A DNA stretch of 64,000 nucleotides, taken from assembly GCA_022710975.1 (NCBI GenBank), contig JAKLGA010000005.1, forward strand, positions 248,001-312,000. The letters run 5' to 3'. The position numbers and the translations under genes are program-made. Shown piece by piece: positions 43,116 through 49,583 of this stretch. Each line of letters begins with the position of its first letter. Positions within the stretch are counted from its first letter, which is position 1. The notes below the pieces were generated by a model that saw only the letters and a program-made list of their open reading frames with translations, was not told the DNA's origin and did not search any database. The stretch is from Myxococcota bacterium. GTDB taxonomy: Bacteria > Myxococcota > B64-G9.

Positions 43116-45272
43116 TCACGGGCTCCGCTTCTTGCCCTGCCGGGCCAGGTTGATCAGCCGGAGCTCGCGCAGGGCCTCGGTGCAGTCGGGGTTGCACTGG
43201 ATGGCCTTCTCGAACTCGTGCTCCGCCATCTCGCGGTAGTTCATCGCCTTGTAGATGTAGCCCAGGAACAGGTAGGCCTTGTCGATCTTGGGGTTGAGCG
43301 AGATGGCCTGGCTGAGCTGGTCGCGCGCCACGCGCACGGCCTCCTCGCTCTTGGGATCGCTCTGGAAGGTGGCCCAGCCGAGGAAGGCGCGGAACTCGCC
43401 CTCGTCCGGGCAGAGGTGCGAGGCCTCGGCGAAGAGCTCCCGGGCCCGGGCGTACTCGCGCTTGCGCAGCGCGGCCTCGCCCTGCTGGAACACGCCCTCG
43501 GCGGTCAGGATCTTGGACACCTCGTTGGACACGCCGCTCTTCTGGCCGGAGGTCAGCGCCTTCACGTACTCGCGCCGGCGCTCGTCGTCGGTCAGCACGT
43601 CGTGGGCGTGGGACACGAGGTTGAACAGCTCGTCGGCCAGGTTGCGCACCTCGATGGAGGCGCCCGCGTACAGCCGATCCGGGTGGTACTGCTTGGCCAG
43701 CGCGAAGTAGGCCTTCTTGATCTCCGCCATGCTGGCGTTCTTGGAGACGCCCAGCACCTCGAAGTGGTCGCGCTTCTTGAGCTCGACGATCTCGCGCGCC
43801 AGCTGCTCCCGCAGCGAGCGCTCCTCGGCGGTCAGGTTGCTGGCCAGCGGCGCGTCCGGGCCGGACAGCACGGGCACCGGCACCCCGCCGGTCTCCGCCA
43901 GCCGGGTGGTGATGCGGTCGGTGGCCAGCCGCTCGCCGTCGTCCTCCGGACCCGCCGCCGGCGGGGGCTCCGGGCTGGCGGACCGGCCGCGCACGGGCAC
44001 GGGCGGCGGGCGCGGCGGCGCCGGCAGATCGGCCGCGGCGGCCACCTCCTGCCCGCCGCTGGCGGCCGTCTCCAGGGTGACCATGCCGGCCGCCAGCAGG
44101 GCGTAGACCAGGGGGTACACCCGGGCCTGCTCCAGCCCCAGGTCGAGGATCTGGCGCAGGGTGAGCGTACCGTCCAGGCGGCCGACGAAGCGCTCCTCGC
44201 CGGGGTCGAGGCCCATGTCCTGGAAGCGGAACAGCGGGTCCGGGTGCGGCACCACGTAGCGGTCGAGCGCGCGGTCGAGCAGCCGCTGCAGGCGGGCGAG
44301 CGGGTAGCGCAGCACGCCCTGCTTGATGAGCGCGGCCGTGGTCTCGTCCAGCGAGATGGTGGCCGGGGGCGCCGAGCTGGCCGGGTTGTACTGGAACTCG
44401 CCGTCCTCCCAGTCGAACAGATCGAACAGCTTCGCCTGGAGCTGCAGCTCGAGGGCGTACTGCAGGTTGTGGGGCGAGATGGAGCCCATGTCGATCAGCA
44501 CCGTGCCCTGCTGGCGCTTGGACTCCTTCATGCGCCGGATGGACTCCTCGCAGTCCTTCTCGGAGATCATCCGCTCGCGCACCATGACCTTGCCCAGGCA
44601 CTCGTTGAGCAGGTTGGACTTGATGAAGGTCGGGTAGCCCGACTTGAAGTAGACGATCTTCTTGACCTTGTCGCGCCGGAGCAGCAGCGCGCCGTCGGCC
44701 TTCTCCCGGTACATGTCGGCCAGCAGCTCGGCGAAGGAGCGCTCGGCCAGCGAGCCGCGGCGCACCGAGCGGCCGAAGTCCTTCTCGCGCGCCTCCACGT
44801 CCTCCGTCTCGGCGTGGCTGTCGGGGCTGGCGAAGGACTCGGGCGAGCGCGAGTCCACCGCCCGGCGCTCGGCCGCGGCCGCCACCGGCGAGGGGTACTC
44901 GGCCCCGAAGGTCTCTCGCAGGATCGCCAGCAACCGCTCGATCTCCAGCGGCTTGTCCAGGTAGTCGAGCACGCCGTACTTGCGCCTGGCCTCCTCGCGG
45001 TGGTTCACCCCGCGGTAGATGCCGCTCAGCATGACGATGGGCACACCCGCGCCCTGGGGCAGCTTGCGGATGCGCTCGGCCACCTGGAAGCCGTTCATCA
45101 CCGGGATGAGGATGTCCAGCAGCACCAGGTCGATGGGCTTGGACTCGTACGAGCGCAGGGCCCACTCGCCGTCCTTCTCGCACACCACCCGGAAGCCCTC
45201 GCCCTCGAGGAGCTCCTGGAGCATCTTCTGCACCGACTTGTCGTCCTCGACGACCAGGATGGTCTTGCTCAC
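43116..45272 (-). CDS. Receiver-DUF4388-like-J-domain-TPR signalling protein
   Basis: 718 aa. Receiver domain at 1-120: 'ILVVEDDKSV', phospho-Asp in 'IDLVLLDILIPVMNG', Ser in 'IVMLSGIYRG' and Lys in 'DYLDKPLE'. About 180-420 resembles the DUF4388/PatA-type domain ('SFAELLADMYREKADGALLLRRDKVKKIVYFKSGYPTFI'). A J-domain (about 502-575) keeps the HPD motif (AKQYHPDRLY), so it could stimulate Hsp70. The last 130 aa are TPR repeats ('KAYLFLGYIYKAMNYREMAEHEFEKAI'). Start is GTG 45272, giving VSKTILVVEDD with GGGAGG upstream; an ATG at 45314 would prefix a disordered stretch. It precedes the pseudokinase gene. Confidence 0.88.
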   Translation of the reverse strand: MSKTILVVEDDKSVQKMLQELLEGEGFRVVCEKDGEWALRSYESKPIDLVLLDILIPVMNGFQVAERIRKLPQGAGVPIVMLSGIYRGVNHREEARRKYGVLDYLDKPLEIERLLAILRETFGAEYPSPVAAAAERRAVDSRSPESFASPDSHAETEDVEAREKDFGRSVRRGSLAERSFAELLADMYREKADGALLLRRDKVKKIVYFKSGYPTFIKSNLLNECLGKVMVRERMISEKDCEESIRRMKESKRQQGTVLIDMGSISPHNLQYALELQLQAKLFDLFDWEDGEFQYNPASSAPPATISLDETTAALIKQGVLRYPLARLQRLLDRALDRYVVPHPDPLFRFQDMGLDPGEERFVGRLDGTLTLRQILDLGLEQARVYPLVYALLAAGMVTLETAASGGQEVAAAADLPAPPRPPPVPVRGRSASPEPPPAAGPEDDGERLATDRITTRLAETGGVPVPVLSGPDAPLASNLTAEERSLREQLAREIVELKKRDHFEVLGVSKNASMAEIKKAYFALAKQYHPDRLYAGASIEVRNLADELFNLVSHAHDVLTDDERRREYVKALTSGQKSGVSNEVSKILTAEGVFQQGEAALRKREYARARELFAEASHLCPDEGEFRAFLGWATFQSDPKSEEAVRVARDQLSQAISLNPKIDKAYLFLGYIYKAMNYREMAEHEFEKAIQCNPDCTEALRELRLINLARQGKKRSP

Positions 45273-45332
45273 ACGTCGCCTCCCGGAACCGGGCGAAATG
45301 CCAAGTGGAAGCACCGGGTTGTTTGCGGGGGG

Positions 45333-45409: not shown

Positions 45410-46837
45410 TCAGGACCGGGCGGCCGCGGGCTCCGCGAAGGGGTGGCCGCCGGGGGCCTGGCGGGCGGCGCGCAGCAGCGATCGGTTCTCGCTGCGCCAG
45501 CGGCGGACCTGGTTGCGGGCGTACAGGCTCATCAGCATGCGGTCCAGCCGCCCCCGGCCGAGGTGGGCGAGCGAGCGCGGCACCGAGTACACCCGGGCCA
45601 TGGCGCGGAAGGCCTCGTCCATCAGGCTGAAGGCCGACATGCGCGCCGGGCGGTACACCGCGTGGTGGCAGCCGAACTTCGACCAGTCCCGGGTCAGGAT
45701 GCGCCCCGCGGCCTCCATCTCGGCGAACATCTCGGTCCCGGGCAGCGGGGTGAGGATCAGGAACTGCACGCTCTCGAGGTCCTCCTGCAGGGCGAACTCC
45801 GCCGTGCGGCGGATGGTCCCCACGTCGTCCGTGTCCGCGCCCAGCACGAACATGCCGTGCACCCACATGCCGTGCGCGTGGAAGGCGCGCACGGCCTGCC
45901 GGATGTCGTCCAGCGCCTGGCGCTTGTGCAGCAGCGCCAGCGACTCGTCGTTGACCGACTCGAAGCCGACGTACAGGTGGGCGCAGCCCGCGCGCCGCAT
46001 CAGCCGGAGCAGCTCCGCATCCCGGGCCGCGCGCACCGACACCTGGGCGCTCCAGCGGGGCAGGAACACGCCCCGGGAGAGCAGGTGCTCGAGCAGGCGC
46101 TTGGCCCGGACGGGCGAGGCGGCGAAGTTGTCGTCGTAGAAGAACACGTAGTCGCCCTGGCCCCGGTGGCGATCGAGCTCGTCCGCGACACGCTCCGGCG
46201 ACATGTAGCGCATCCTGTGCCCGAACATGGGGGTCACCGAGCAGAAGGTGCAGTGGTGCGGGCAGCCGCGCGAGGTCTGCACCGGGATCACCCCGCGCTG
46301 GAACCAGTCGCCCCGGCGGCCCGCGAGCAGCGAGAAGTCCGGCACCGGCACCTGATCGAGGTCCAGGTTCGGCGGCGGCAGGGGGTTGTGGTGCAGCCCG
46401 GCGCCGTCCTGCCAGGACAGGCCTGGCACCGCGGCCAGGTCACCGTCCGGCTTGGCCAGCGCGTCCAGCAGCCGCGGGAAGCTCTGCTCCGCCTCCCCCC
46501 GCACCACGAGGTCGGCGTGCTCCAGCCCCTCCTCCGCCATGAAGGTCGGGTGCGCGCCGCCCAGCACCACGGTCTTGCCCAGCGCCCGGGCCCGGTCCGC
46601 CAGCCGGTAGGCCGCCATGGCGGTGCACGAGATGGTCGAGATGCACACCAGGTCCGCGCCCTCCAGGGCGGCCTGCTCGAGCGCCTTCATCTCCTCGAAG
46701 TAGATGCGCACCGACAGGCCCCGCGCCCGGGCGATCGAGCCCAGGATGGGCAGGCCCAGCCGGGGCAGCAGGTAGCGCGAGTAGATGTGGCTGCCAGGGG
46801 CCTTGGGCTCGACCATGACCACGTTTCGAATTTCCAT
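45410..46837 (-). CDS. Radical SAM protein with N-terminal B12-binding-like domain
   Basis: 475 aa. An N-terminal Rossmann-type domain (about 1-140) resembles B12-binding domains, but the DxHxxG cobalamin motif is not evident. The radical SAM core has 'TSRGCPHHCTFCSVTPMFG' with Cys192, Cys196, Cys199 (CxxxCxxC) for the 4Fe-4S cluster. Later blocks ('FYDDNFAASPVRAKRLLEHLL', 'VGFESVNDESLALLHKRQ', 'GMFVLGADTDDVGTIRRTAEFA') match the B12-type radical SAM group that includes many enzymes of unknown substrate. Start at 46837 follows GGAGGCAGGG. Its upstream region holds a palindrome that is likely a TetR operator. Confidence 0.85.
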   Translation of the reverse strand: MEIRNVVMVEPKAPGSHIYSRYLLPRLGLPILGSIARARGLSVRIYFEEMKALEQAALEGADLVCISTISCTAMAAYRLADRARALGKTVVLGGAHPTFMAEEGLEHADLVVRGEAEQSFPRLLDALAKPDGDLAAVPGLSWQDGAGLHHNPLPPPNLDLDQVPVPDFSLLAGRRGDWFQRGVIPVQTSRGCPHHCTFCSVTPMFGHRMRYMSPERVADELDRHRGQGDYVFFYDDNFAASPVRAKRLLEHLLSRGVFLPRWSAQVSVRAARDAELLRLMRRAGCAHLYVGFESVNDESLALLHKRQALDDIRQAVRAFHAHGMWVHGMFVLGADTDDVGTIRRTAEFALQEDLESVQFLILTPLPGTEMFAEMEAAGRILTRDWSKFGCHHAVYRPARMSAFSLMDEAFRAMARVYSVPRSLAHLGRGRLDRMLMSLYARNQVRRWRSENRSLLRAARQAPGGHPFAEPAAARS

Positions 46838-46850
46838 CCCTGCCTCCATG

Positions 46851-46871
46851 AACCAACCGGTTGGTTGACTG
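46851..46871. promoter_or_regulatory. Likely TetR operator 1 (upstream of the radical SAM gene)
   Basis: AACCAACCGGTTGGTT (46851-46866) is a perfect 16-bp palindrome. With the following bases it gives CAACC (46854-46858), 4 nt, GGTTGACTG (46863-46871), which matches operator 2 near 47745. It lies about 14-34 nt before the radical SAM ATG, in position to block transcription or initiation. Confidence 0.6.
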
Positions 46872-46878
46872 ATCGGGC

Positions 46879-46900
46879 AAAAAAAAGGGTCCGCCACCCT
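46879..46900 (-). terminator. Intrinsic terminator of the TetR gene
   Basis: Minus strand: AGGGT (46900-46896), loop GGCGG, ACCCT pairing, then eight T residues (46886-46879), 7 nt after the TetR stop codon. The stem is only five base pairs, but the T-run is long for this GC-rich DNA. Confidence 0.5.
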
Positions 46901-46907
46901 GCTCCGC

Positions 46908-47735
46908 TCACGGGCGCTTGCAGCCCAGCCCGGCGAACACCAGGTCCAGGAGCTGCTCCCGGCGCTCGTGCAAAAACCGCTCGCGGAAAGGATCCTCCCC
47001 GAGCAACAGGCGCATGAACTCGGCCTCCGAGAAGTACGACATGGTCATCCCGTACACGCTCAGCAGGAACTGCCGGGCATCCACCTTGCGGAAGTCGCCC
47101 TGGGCGATGCCCGCCTTGATGAAGGCCACCCCGCGGTCGAACAGGGGCTTGAAGAAGGTCTCCACCAGGCGGGCCAGGTAGCGGTCCTGGCTGCCGAGAT
47201 CCATCGAGGTGATGCGGGAGAAGTTGCGGTGGGTCGCCACGTAGTCGAAGAACCCCCGGTAGAAGACCTCCAGGGCCCTGGGAATGCTCAGATCGTCGCG
47301 GCTGGCCTCCTGGGACAACTTGATGAGATCGAAGAGGATCTTGTCCAGGACCGCGTGGTAGAGCTTCTCCTTGCTGTCGAAGTAGTAGTGGATCATGGCC
47401 TTGTTCACCCCGGCCAGATCCGCGATGGCCTGGGTGCGAGCGCCGCCGAAGCCCATGCGGGCGAAGATCGCCTCGGCCACGAACACGATGCGCTCGCGGG
47501 GATCCCGGACGCCATCGAGCTTGCGCACGAAGTCGGTGCCGTAGTCCCCGGCCGCCTGCTCCAGGGCCCGCAGGTGCTTCTTGTCCTTCTTGCTGGCATG
47601 CGCCAGGAGTTCGCTGAGCTCGAGCCCTTCGGCCGGCTTCTCCTGGGCCCAGTCGTCCGCCTCCGGGGGCTCCGCGGCGGAGCCCTCGGGCCTGTCGACC
47701 AGCTTCAGCCCGGCCTTGGCGGTCTCGTCGGTCAC
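46908..47735 (-). CDS. TetR family transcriptional regulator with extended N-terminus
   Basis: 275 aa from GTG 47735, longer than the usual about 200 aa because of an N-terminal acidic/charged extension of about 70 aa ('PPEADDWAQEKPAEGLELSELL'). The DNA-binding domain is 'ERIVFVAEAIFARMGFGGARTQAIADLAGVNKAMIHYYFDSKEKLYHAVLDKI', a clear TetR helix-turn-helix. The C-terminal ligand domain has 'TSMDLGSQDRYLARLVETFFKPLFDRGVAFIKAGIAQGDFRKVD'. There is no Shine-Dalgarno, and a promoter with perfect TTGACA ends 6 nt before the GTG, so the mRNA may be leaderless. Operators lie on both sides of the gene, suggesting self-repression and control of the radical SAM gene. Confidence 0.85.
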   Translation of the reverse strand: MTDETAKAGLKLVDRPEGSAAEPPEADDWAQEKPAEGLELSELLAHASKKDKKHLRALEQAAGDYGTDFVRKLDGVRDPRERIVFVAEAIFARMGFGGARTQAIADLAGVNKAMIHYYFDSKEKLYHAVLDKILFDLIKLSQEASRDDLSIPRALEVFYRGFFDYVATHRNFSRITSMDLGSQDRYLARLVETFFKPLFDRGVAFIKAGIAQGDFRKVDARQFLLSVYGMTMSYFSEAEFMRLLLGEDPFRERFLHERREQLLDLVFAGLGCKRP

Positions 47736-47738
47736 GGC

Positions 47739-47764
47739 GCCAGTCAACCATGCGGTTAACTGGC
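47739..47764. promoter_or_regulatory. Likely TetR operator 2 (upstream of tetR-like gene)
   Basis: Arms GCCAGTCAACC (47739-47749) and GGTTAACTGGC (47754-47764) are inverted repeats, 10 of 11 matching, with a 4-nt centre. It shares CAACC, 4 nt, GGTT(G/A)ACTG with operator 1, and it overlaps the tetR -10 region. Confidence 0.6.
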
Positions 47765-47770
47765 TGTCAA
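47742..47770 (-). promoter_or_regulatory. Putative promoter of the TetR gene
   Basis: Minus strand TTGACA (47770-47765, perfect -35), 17-nt spacer, TTGACT (47747-47742, weak -10). The operator lies across the spacer and -10. The predicted start coincides with the GTG at 47735. Confidence 0.4.
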
Positions 47771-47861: not shown

Positions 47862-49583
47862 GTGGAGCGAGCGCTCACCGGCTGGGGCTGGCTGTCGCTG
47901 GGGATGGGCTGGGGCATCATCCTGGCCTTCACCGCCTTCTGCGTGCTGCGCATCCTGCGGGCGCGCAGGCGCCAGGCCGCGCTCGGCGCCCCGGCCGGCG
48001 ACCCGGGCAGCCGGGTCCAGTGGGCCACCCGGGTGGGGCTCATCCTGGCCATGGCCGGCAACGCCATCGGGCTGGGGAACTTCCTGCGCTTCCCGGTCAA
48101 GTGCGCGGCCAACGGCGGGGGCGCCTTCCTGGTGCCCTACTTCGTCGCCCTGCTGCTCCTCGGCATCCCCCTCATGTGGGTCGAGTGGACCATCGGCCGG
48201 CACGGGGGCGCGCGCGGGCACGGCTCCACCCCGGGCCAGTTCCAGCTCCTCTGGCGCCACCCGGCGGCCAAGTACCTGGGGGCGCTCGGCCTGGCGCTGC
48301 CCTTCGGGGTGGTGGTGTTCTACGCCTTCATCGAGTCCTGGACGCTCGGCTTCGCCTGGTTCTCGGGCACGGGCGCCTACTGGGGCCTGACCACCCGGAC
48401 GGAGATGGGCCAGTTCCTGCGCGGCTTCCAGGGCGCGGAGTCGAATCAGTTCTTCTCCTCGGCGCTGCCCGTGTGCCTGTTCATGGCGCTGACCCTGGGG
48501 CTCAACTACCTCTTCCTGCGCCGGGGCATCGCCAGGGGCATCGAGGTGCTGGCGCGCTACGGCATGCCGGTCCTGTTCGTGTGCGCCCTGGCGCTCGCCA
48601 TCCGCGTGCTCACCCTGGGCGCGCCGGACCCCGCCCTGCCCGCCCGGAGCGTGGCCACGGGCATGGCCTACATGTGGAACCCGGACTTCAGCCGGCTCAG
48701 CGAGGCCGGGGTGTGGCTGGTGGCGGCCGGGCAGATCTTCTTCACCCTCAGCCTGGGCCAGGGCATGATCAACACCTACGCCTCCTACGTCAGCGAGACC
48801 CAGGACATCTCGCTCAACGCCCTGAGCACCTCGATGACCAACGAGGTGGCCGAGGTGATCCTGGGGGGCACCATCGCCATCCCGGCCGCGGTGGCCTTCT
48901 TCGGGCTGGCCGAGACCCAGGCCATCGCCCAGGGCGGGGCCTTCGACCTCGGCTTCCAGTCCATGCCGATCATCTTCCAGCGCATCCCCTGGGGCCAGCT
49001 GTTCGGCTGCCTGTGGTTCCTGCTGCTGTTCATCGCGGCGGTCACCTCCTCGGTGGCCATGCTCCAGCCGGCGGTGGCCTTCCTGCAGGACGAGCTGGGC
49101 TGGAGCCGCAAGCGCGCGGTGAACGCGGTGCTGGCCTTCCAGATCGCCTGCTCGGCCCTGGTGGTGCTGTGGTTCCGGCACGGGTTCGTGGACGAGCTCG
49201 ACTTCTGGGTGGGCACCTTCGGCCTGGTGGTGCTGGCGCTCGTCGAGGTGGTGCTGTTCGCCTGGGTGTTCGGGGTCGAGCGCGGCTTCCAGGAGCTCGA
49301 CCGCGGGGCGGACATCCGCGTGCCGCGCCTGTTCAAGGTGGTGATCAAGTACCTCACCCCGACCTTCCTGCTGGCCATCCTGATCGTCTGGAGCGTGGAC
49401 GAGGCCTGGGGCGTGCTGCGCATGGAGGGCGTGCCGGACGAGCGCAGGCCCTACCTGTGGGCCGCGCGCGGGCTCATCCTGGTCATCCTGGGGGTGAGCC
49501 TGTACCTGGTGCGCCTGGCCTGGCGGCGCAGGCGGGCGCGGTCGACAGCGTCAGGGGTGGCTGCTACCATCCCGCCCGCATGA
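47862..49583 (+). CDS. Sodium:neurotransmitter symporter family (SNF) transporter
   Basis: 573 aa, about 12-13 membrane segments. Imports amino acids or similar solutes with Na+ in the inner membrane. The family signature 'RVGLILAMAGNAIGLGNFLRFPVKCAANGGGAFLVPY' lies at about residues 52-95, containing the Na+- and substrate-binding unwound helix (GNAIGLGNF). An additional hydrophobic helix (about 8-28) precedes the normal TM1, which is unusual. 'SQTQDIS'-like 'VSETQDISLNALSTSMTN' and 'GGAFDLGFQSMP' follow. Start is GTG 47862 with GGGAGAG upstream; the earlier ATG (47787) lacks a site. The stop overlaps the recC ATG. Confidence 0.88.
   Translation: MERALTGWGWLSLGMGWGIILAFTAFCVLRILRARRRQAALGAPAGDPGSRVQWATRVGLILAMAGNAIGLGNFLRFPVKCAANGGGAFLVPYFVALLLLGIPLMWVEWTIGRHGGARGHGSTPGQFQLLWRHPAAKYLGALGLALPFGVVVFYAFIESWTLGFAWFSGTGAYWGLTTRTEMGQFLRGFQGAESNQFFSSALPVCLFMALTLGLNYLFLRRGIARGIEVLARYGMPVLFVCALALAIRVLTLGAPDPALPARSVATGMAYMWNPDFSRLSEAGVWLVAAGQIFFTLSLGQGMINTYASYVSETQDISLNALSTSMTNEVAEVILGGTIAIPAAVAFFGLAETQAIAQGGAFDLGFQSMPIIFQRIPWGQLFGCLWFLLLFIAAVTSSVAMLQPAVAFLQDELGWSRKRAVNAVLAFQIACSALVVLWFRHGFVDELDFWVGTFGLVVLALVEVVLFAWVFGVERGFQELDRGADIRVPRLFKVVIKYLTPTFLLAILIVWSVDEAWGVLRMEGVPDERRPYLWAARGLILVILGVSLYLVRLAWRRRRARSTASGVAATIPPA

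Follow-up and report, generated by a model that had tools for sequence, protein, structure and literature searches.

RutR, the TetR-family regulator of pyrimidine/purine metabolism in E. coli, is the nearest solved relative, by sequence and fold, of the regulator described here. The E. coli RutR consensus reads TTGACCANNTGGTCAA; the ligand pocket includes Trp167, and the W167A mutant was reportedly crystallized without ligand. Operators of the QacR and CprB type are bound by two dimers. FadR (Bacillus), FasR (Mycobacterium) and PsrA control lipid genes, as we propose for the present regulator; to our knowledge, none of them uses TTAACC-N4-GGTTAA as its operator, and we know of no radical SAM target for any of them. 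The RutR box is a palindrome of about 16 bp (PMC10891134), and FasR is described as an activator (PMC7382501). Our literature search returned no work combining TetR, radical SAM, acyltransferase, operator and palindrome.

The locus considered here lies in a 64,000-nucleotide stretch of a Myxococcota genome, referred to as the window, in which a tetR-like gene is followed, about 70 bp further on and in the same direction, by a gene for a B12-binding radical SAM (rSAM) protein (Table 1).

A TetR-type regulator next to a radical SAM gene

The regulator belongs to the TetR/AcrR family. Its TetR_N HTH (PF00440) scored 42.7 bits and its ligand-binding domain (PF17938) 47 bits, against Pfam gathering cut-offs of 24 and 26.2, respectively. 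The AlphaFold2 model (pLDDT 82.6) has the all-helical TetR fold, with RutR structures as the top Foldseek matches (TMt 0.75-0.84); FadR of Bacillus and FasR of Mycobacterium also matched it by fold.

The regulator resembles RutR in both sequence and fold without being RutR itself. Its scores against the RutR equivalogs TIGR03613 and NF011584 were 71.1 and 60.8 bits, below the cut-offs of 368 and 230, and RutR Trp167 is replaced by Tyr228, a residue invariant in a five-sequence alignment. Whereas RutR targets pyrimidine/purine metabolism, the predicted targets here are acyltransferases and B12-rSAM genes, with no adjacent rut or nucleobase genes. Pyrimidine sensing in the manner of RutR was rejected on equivalog cut-off, pocket residue and target genes. 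The equivalogs of FadR, FasR and PsrA were not reached either (38.8, 37 and 35 bits against 200, 330 and 300).

Ahead of the HTH, residues 1-75 form an unusual, long N-terminal extension with extra helices, starting with a tail of 37 disordered residues followed by lysine-rich helices. Within the extension, and outside the RutR match, the segment YGTDFVRKL is largely conserved across four family orthologs. No relatives were found in viral contigs.

The protein encoded by the adjacent gene has a B12-binding domain ahead of its radical SAM domain, in which the CxxxCxxC motif is present as CPHHCTFC. The nearest models are those of the BchE, HpnJ and HpnR class, yet the protein falls far below each equivalog cut-off (142/481, 126/578 and 116/650 bits, score/cut-off), and no named NCBIfam equivalog reached its cut-off. 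We know of no substrate for most B12-binding radical SAM enzymes. A paralog elsewhere in the genome (G000:C23:10289-11581; L151, L237), with one TGA counted inside the match in the genome search, has neither an operator nor an adjacent tetR. Downstream of the rSAM gene, positions 43116-45275 (minus strand) encode an unusual combination of a response-regulator receiver domain, DUF4388, DnaJ and TPRs.

Table 1. Positions of genes, putative operators and promoter elements. Plain coordinates refer to the window; those with a prefix refer to other contigs of the same genome.
Feature	Position	Strand	Details
B12-binding radical SAM (rSAM) gene	45410..46837	-	ATG start 46837; GGAGG 46843-46847; PF02310 + PF04055
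Operator 1 (putative)	46851-46871	.	AACCAACCGGTTGGTTGACTG, i.e., the AACCAACCGGTTGGTT palindrome plus GACTG
Possible weak rSAM -35	46875..46886	-	T-tract ending TTGCCC, 8 bp before operator core; putative role
tetR-like regulator gene	46908..47735	-	275 aa; GTG start 47735; TetR_N HTH + TetR_C_29
Operator 2 (putative)	47739-47764	.	GCCAGTCAACC-ATGC-GGTTAACTGGC; inside tetR promoter
tetR -35 box TTGACA	47765..47770	-	exactly 7 bp upstream of AACC-N4-GGTT
SNF-type Na+:neurotransmitter symporter gene	47862..49583	+	PF00209; divergent, beginning about 100 bp from operator 2
PlsC-1 acyltransferase gene	G000:C27:319609-320439		two tandem sites, 14-50 bp upstream
PlsC-2 acyltransferase gene	G000:C29:103082-103837		one core site; palindrome ACCAACCGGTTGGT about 20 bp away
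rSAM-2, second B12-binding radical SAM gene	G000:C24:330160-331707 (L159/L238)		core about 35-50 nt inside ORF

Two operator candidates and the putative promoters around them

The original prediction had named a perfect 16-bp palindrome and a near-perfect inverted repeat on either side of the regulator gene, both containing CAACC, 4 nt and GGTT(G/A)ACTG. The two elements and the motif are indeed present. The palindrome, AACCAACCGGTTGGTT, occupies positions 46851-46866, past the tetR stop codon and just ahead of the rSAM ribosome-binding site, GGAGG. The repeat pairs two 11-nt arms, with a single mismatch, across a 4-nt spacer, and 3 bp separate it from the tetR GTG start. CAACC-N4-GGTTRACTG was found at 46854-46871 and 47745-47762, with no further exact match in the window. 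At operator 1 the palindrome and the motif both stand, but the motif is not centered on the palindrome: its center, the mean of the 4-nt spacer at 46859-46862, is 46860.5, 2 bp off the palindrome center at 46858.5.

This 16-mer is made up of two overlapping AACC-N4-GGTT cores offset by 4 bp. Because the cores and their half-sites overlap, it is possible that operator 1 takes two regulator dimers; the overlap resembles that of QacR and CprB operators, although the offset here is 4 bp and binding by two dimers is a prediction. An operator matrix was trained on nine sites from the tetR, plsC and rSAM-2 promoters, leaving out every operator-1 sequence. In all four orthologous loci its second-best match was operator 1; it favored the CAACC-N4-GGTT register, though by a narrow margin in the window. 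Both palindromes are almost certainly sites at which the adjacent TetR-type regulator is predicted to bind.

Operator 2 occupies the spacer of the tetR promoter, and the layout TTGACA-N7-AACC-N4-GGTT, with exactly 7 bp, is identical in all four orthologous tetR promoters. An operator between -35 and -10 is in the classic position for a repressor, and repression is therefore favored. Before operator 1, a run of T6-9 followed by TTGNNN-N7/8-AACY is found in all four loci, and the TTG box is a possible weak -35 of the rSAM gene, with a geometry like that of tetR. The -10 boxes at these promoters are poor and a consensus promoter scan returned none, so both promoters are considered putative.

Occurrence of the motif in the genome and in related lineages

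The window is rich in G+C-rich inverted repeats, with ten perfect palindromes that are 14 bp or longer and 49 matches to inverted repeats with 11-nt arms. Palindromy alone is therefore not remarkable, and the shared motif is the significant part. A genome-wide scan had been set beforehand as the check, a common motif counting against the idea; the motif proved to be anything but common. In the 7.13-Mb genome, CAACC-N4-GGTTRACTG was confined to the two window sites even when one mismatch was allowed, and an order-2 Markov model expects 0.02 exact matches per genome. These genome-wide searches (7.1 Mb) were run as pattern scans. The degenerate core AACC-N4-GGTTRA was found at six distinct places (9 oriented matches versus 3.75 expected by the Markov model), a few chance occurrences of this core alone being expected per genome.

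The arrangement of tetR directly followed by the rSAM gene recurs in three further genera of the family (G008/L005, G005/L006 and G007/L007), with 63-65% identity between the regulators and 57-61% between the adjoining rSAM proteins. Both operators are kept in four out of four genera found to have the pair, and ACYAACYRGTTGGT between the two genes is conserved in the three orthologous loci. The originally proposed autoregulation and control of the rSAM gene are thus supported by the retention of both sites with the pair in four genera, the promoter geometry and the rarity of the motif. Control of the rSAM gene is further backed by the rSAM homologs unpaired with this tetR, in this genome and its relatives, none of which had a strong operator. 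The divergent symporter gene could be co-controlled in this genome only; as a conserved target it is disfavored, since no SNF match was found at the orthologous loci (L005, L006, L007).

All six core places lie at gene starts, no farther from the start codon than about 55 bp upstream or 50 bp downstream: one each at tetR, rSAM, PlsC-2 and rSAM-2, and two at PlsC-1. This suggests that the set under the regulator extends to two acyltransferase genes, and possibly to rSAM-2, whose site reads TCAACC-GTTT-GGTTGA and falls in the first codons. Both PlsC-1 and PlsC-2 score above the cut-off of TIGR00530 (1-acylglycerol-3-phosphate acyltransferase), and the plsC operators are paired 20-21 bp apart, about two helical turns. 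Since PlsC-1 has seven matches in the genome, itself included, chance is very unlikely to have put two acyltransferases among the three unlinked targets.

In G005, the ortholog of PlsC-1 has ACCAAGTAGTTGGT and GTAACCATTTGGTTGA upstream. In G007 and G008 the PlsC homologs have no operator upstream, and the G005 and G007 orthologs of rSAM-2 lack its site. Because of these absences, and because the rSAM-2 site is intra-ORF, the outer regulon is lineage-specific or partly coincidental, and less confidence attaches to its acyltransferase and rSAM-2 members than to tetR and the neighboring rSAM gene. With the exception of the PlsC-1 site in G005, the remaining core matches in G005, G007 and G008 appeared to fall within or between unrelated ORFs and added no regulon members; their placement followed a crude ORF call, with controls in G005 about as high as the matches.

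In an independent lineage, at the Myxococcales locus L038 (7112-7378), where the regulator is 57% identical, a perfect operator, TTAACCATCCGGTTAGT, lies about 40 bp before the start of a B12-rSAM-like gene, about 1.5 kb downstream of tetR on the same contig. This gene is cut at the MAG contig end; tblastn matches of its first 70 residues are annotated as B12-binding rSAM, and Pfam and NCBIfam gave no match on the 70-aa fragment. Among more distant homologs, L045 and L080 have the motif just before their own tetR, and L049 a near match with one core base changed. No operator was seen in the close relatives L037 and L039-L041 (50-56% identity). In Burkholderiales RutR-like relatives, an ABC transporter operon about 4 kb away is preceded by TGACC-N4-GGTTA, which has the same half-site layout, and the RACC-N4-GGTY layout of sites near RutR-like genes is that of the present regulator's sites. 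In L008 (G020:C44), RutR-like palindromes TTGACCATATGGTCAA and CTGACCAATTGGTCAG (around 2162-2306) lie upstream of a 54%-identical regulator, which adjoins an apparent 2-hydroxyacyl-CoA dehydratase activator-like gene, not an rSAM gene.

A candidate lipid-gene regulon and its alternatives

Given the sites, their rarity, conservation and geometry, and the target genes, we consider it likely that the regulator, through predicted binding and repression, is a TetR repressor that controls its own gene and a small phospholipid/B12-rSAM regulon. In the proposed mechanism, a TetR-family dimer would bind YAACC-N4-GGTTR. At operator 2 it would fill the -35/-10 spacer of its own promoter and sterically block RNA polymerase, resulting in autorepression; at operator 1 it would repress the B12-dependent rSAM gene, where the overlapping cores could accommodate a second dimer. 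The two unlinked PlsC-type genes would be repressed via their paired operators, possibly along with rSAM-2. As two unlinked targets are acyltransferases, a lipid ligand and a lipid substrate of the rSAM enzyme are favored. The ligand class, as indicated by the targets, is probably lipid-related; such a ligand, probably an acyl thioester or a phospholipid precursor, would release the regulator and turn on a small group of genes for membrane-lipid remodeling.

A more local circuit would confine the regulator to itself and the adjacent rSAM gene, leaving the plsC and rSAM-2 sites to chance or to another TetR paralog. It would accommodate the fact that conservation in all four genera is limited to the tetR and rSAM sites, and that G007 and G008 lack the PlsC sites, but we regard it as unlikely: every genomic core match is at a gene start, two targets share one enzyme class, and the PlsC-1 and PlsC-2 sites keep their paired spacing, with the PlsC pair conserved in G005. 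Operator 2 sits inside the -35/-10 spacer, always 7 bp from the -35 box, which is the classic repressor position. This makes it improbable that the regulator activates its targets, or that operator 1 serves mainly as a roadblock or as a partner in looping for the autoregulation of tetR, 0.9 kb away, rather than as a site of the rSAM promoter. The T-tract after tetR and the TTG box before operator 1 likewise fit a separate rSAM promoter. What speaks for activation or looping is the short distance between the co-directional tetR and rSAM genes, the poor -10 before rSAM, and the existence of TetR-type activators of lipid genes, FasR being one according to PMC7382501.

An origin of the palindromes as RNA elements or terminators, or as inverted repeats arising by chance in a GC-rich genome, is highly improbable. 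The frequency of inverted repeats in the window is in keeping with such an origin, but one half-site is common to both palindromes, their conservation across genera contradicts chance, the T-tract stands before operator 1 and not after it, and only 0.02 exact occurrences of the motif are expected per genome. An RNA element or terminator at operator 1 was rejected, as the T-tract precedes the operator and the terminator-like match before it was not above shuffles.

The autoregulated repressor that we favor is a circuit of an already known type, and its added interest lies in the link between an uncharacterized B12-rSAM protein and phospholipid acyltransferases. We tentatively raise the possibility that this TetR-family sensor runs an undescribed membrane-lipid modification pathway, consisting of one or two B12-rSAM enzymes and dedicated PlsC-type acyltransferases; acyl chains might, for instance, be methylated or undergo carbon-carbon coupling. 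Starting from an operator guessed by eye in one window, a genome scan led to a candidate regulon. By tying a family-less B12-rSAM protein to phospholipid acyltransferases, the shared operator would narrow the search for its substrate to membrane lipids and, if the prediction is true, would serve as a tag for finding more genes of the lipid-modification pathway.
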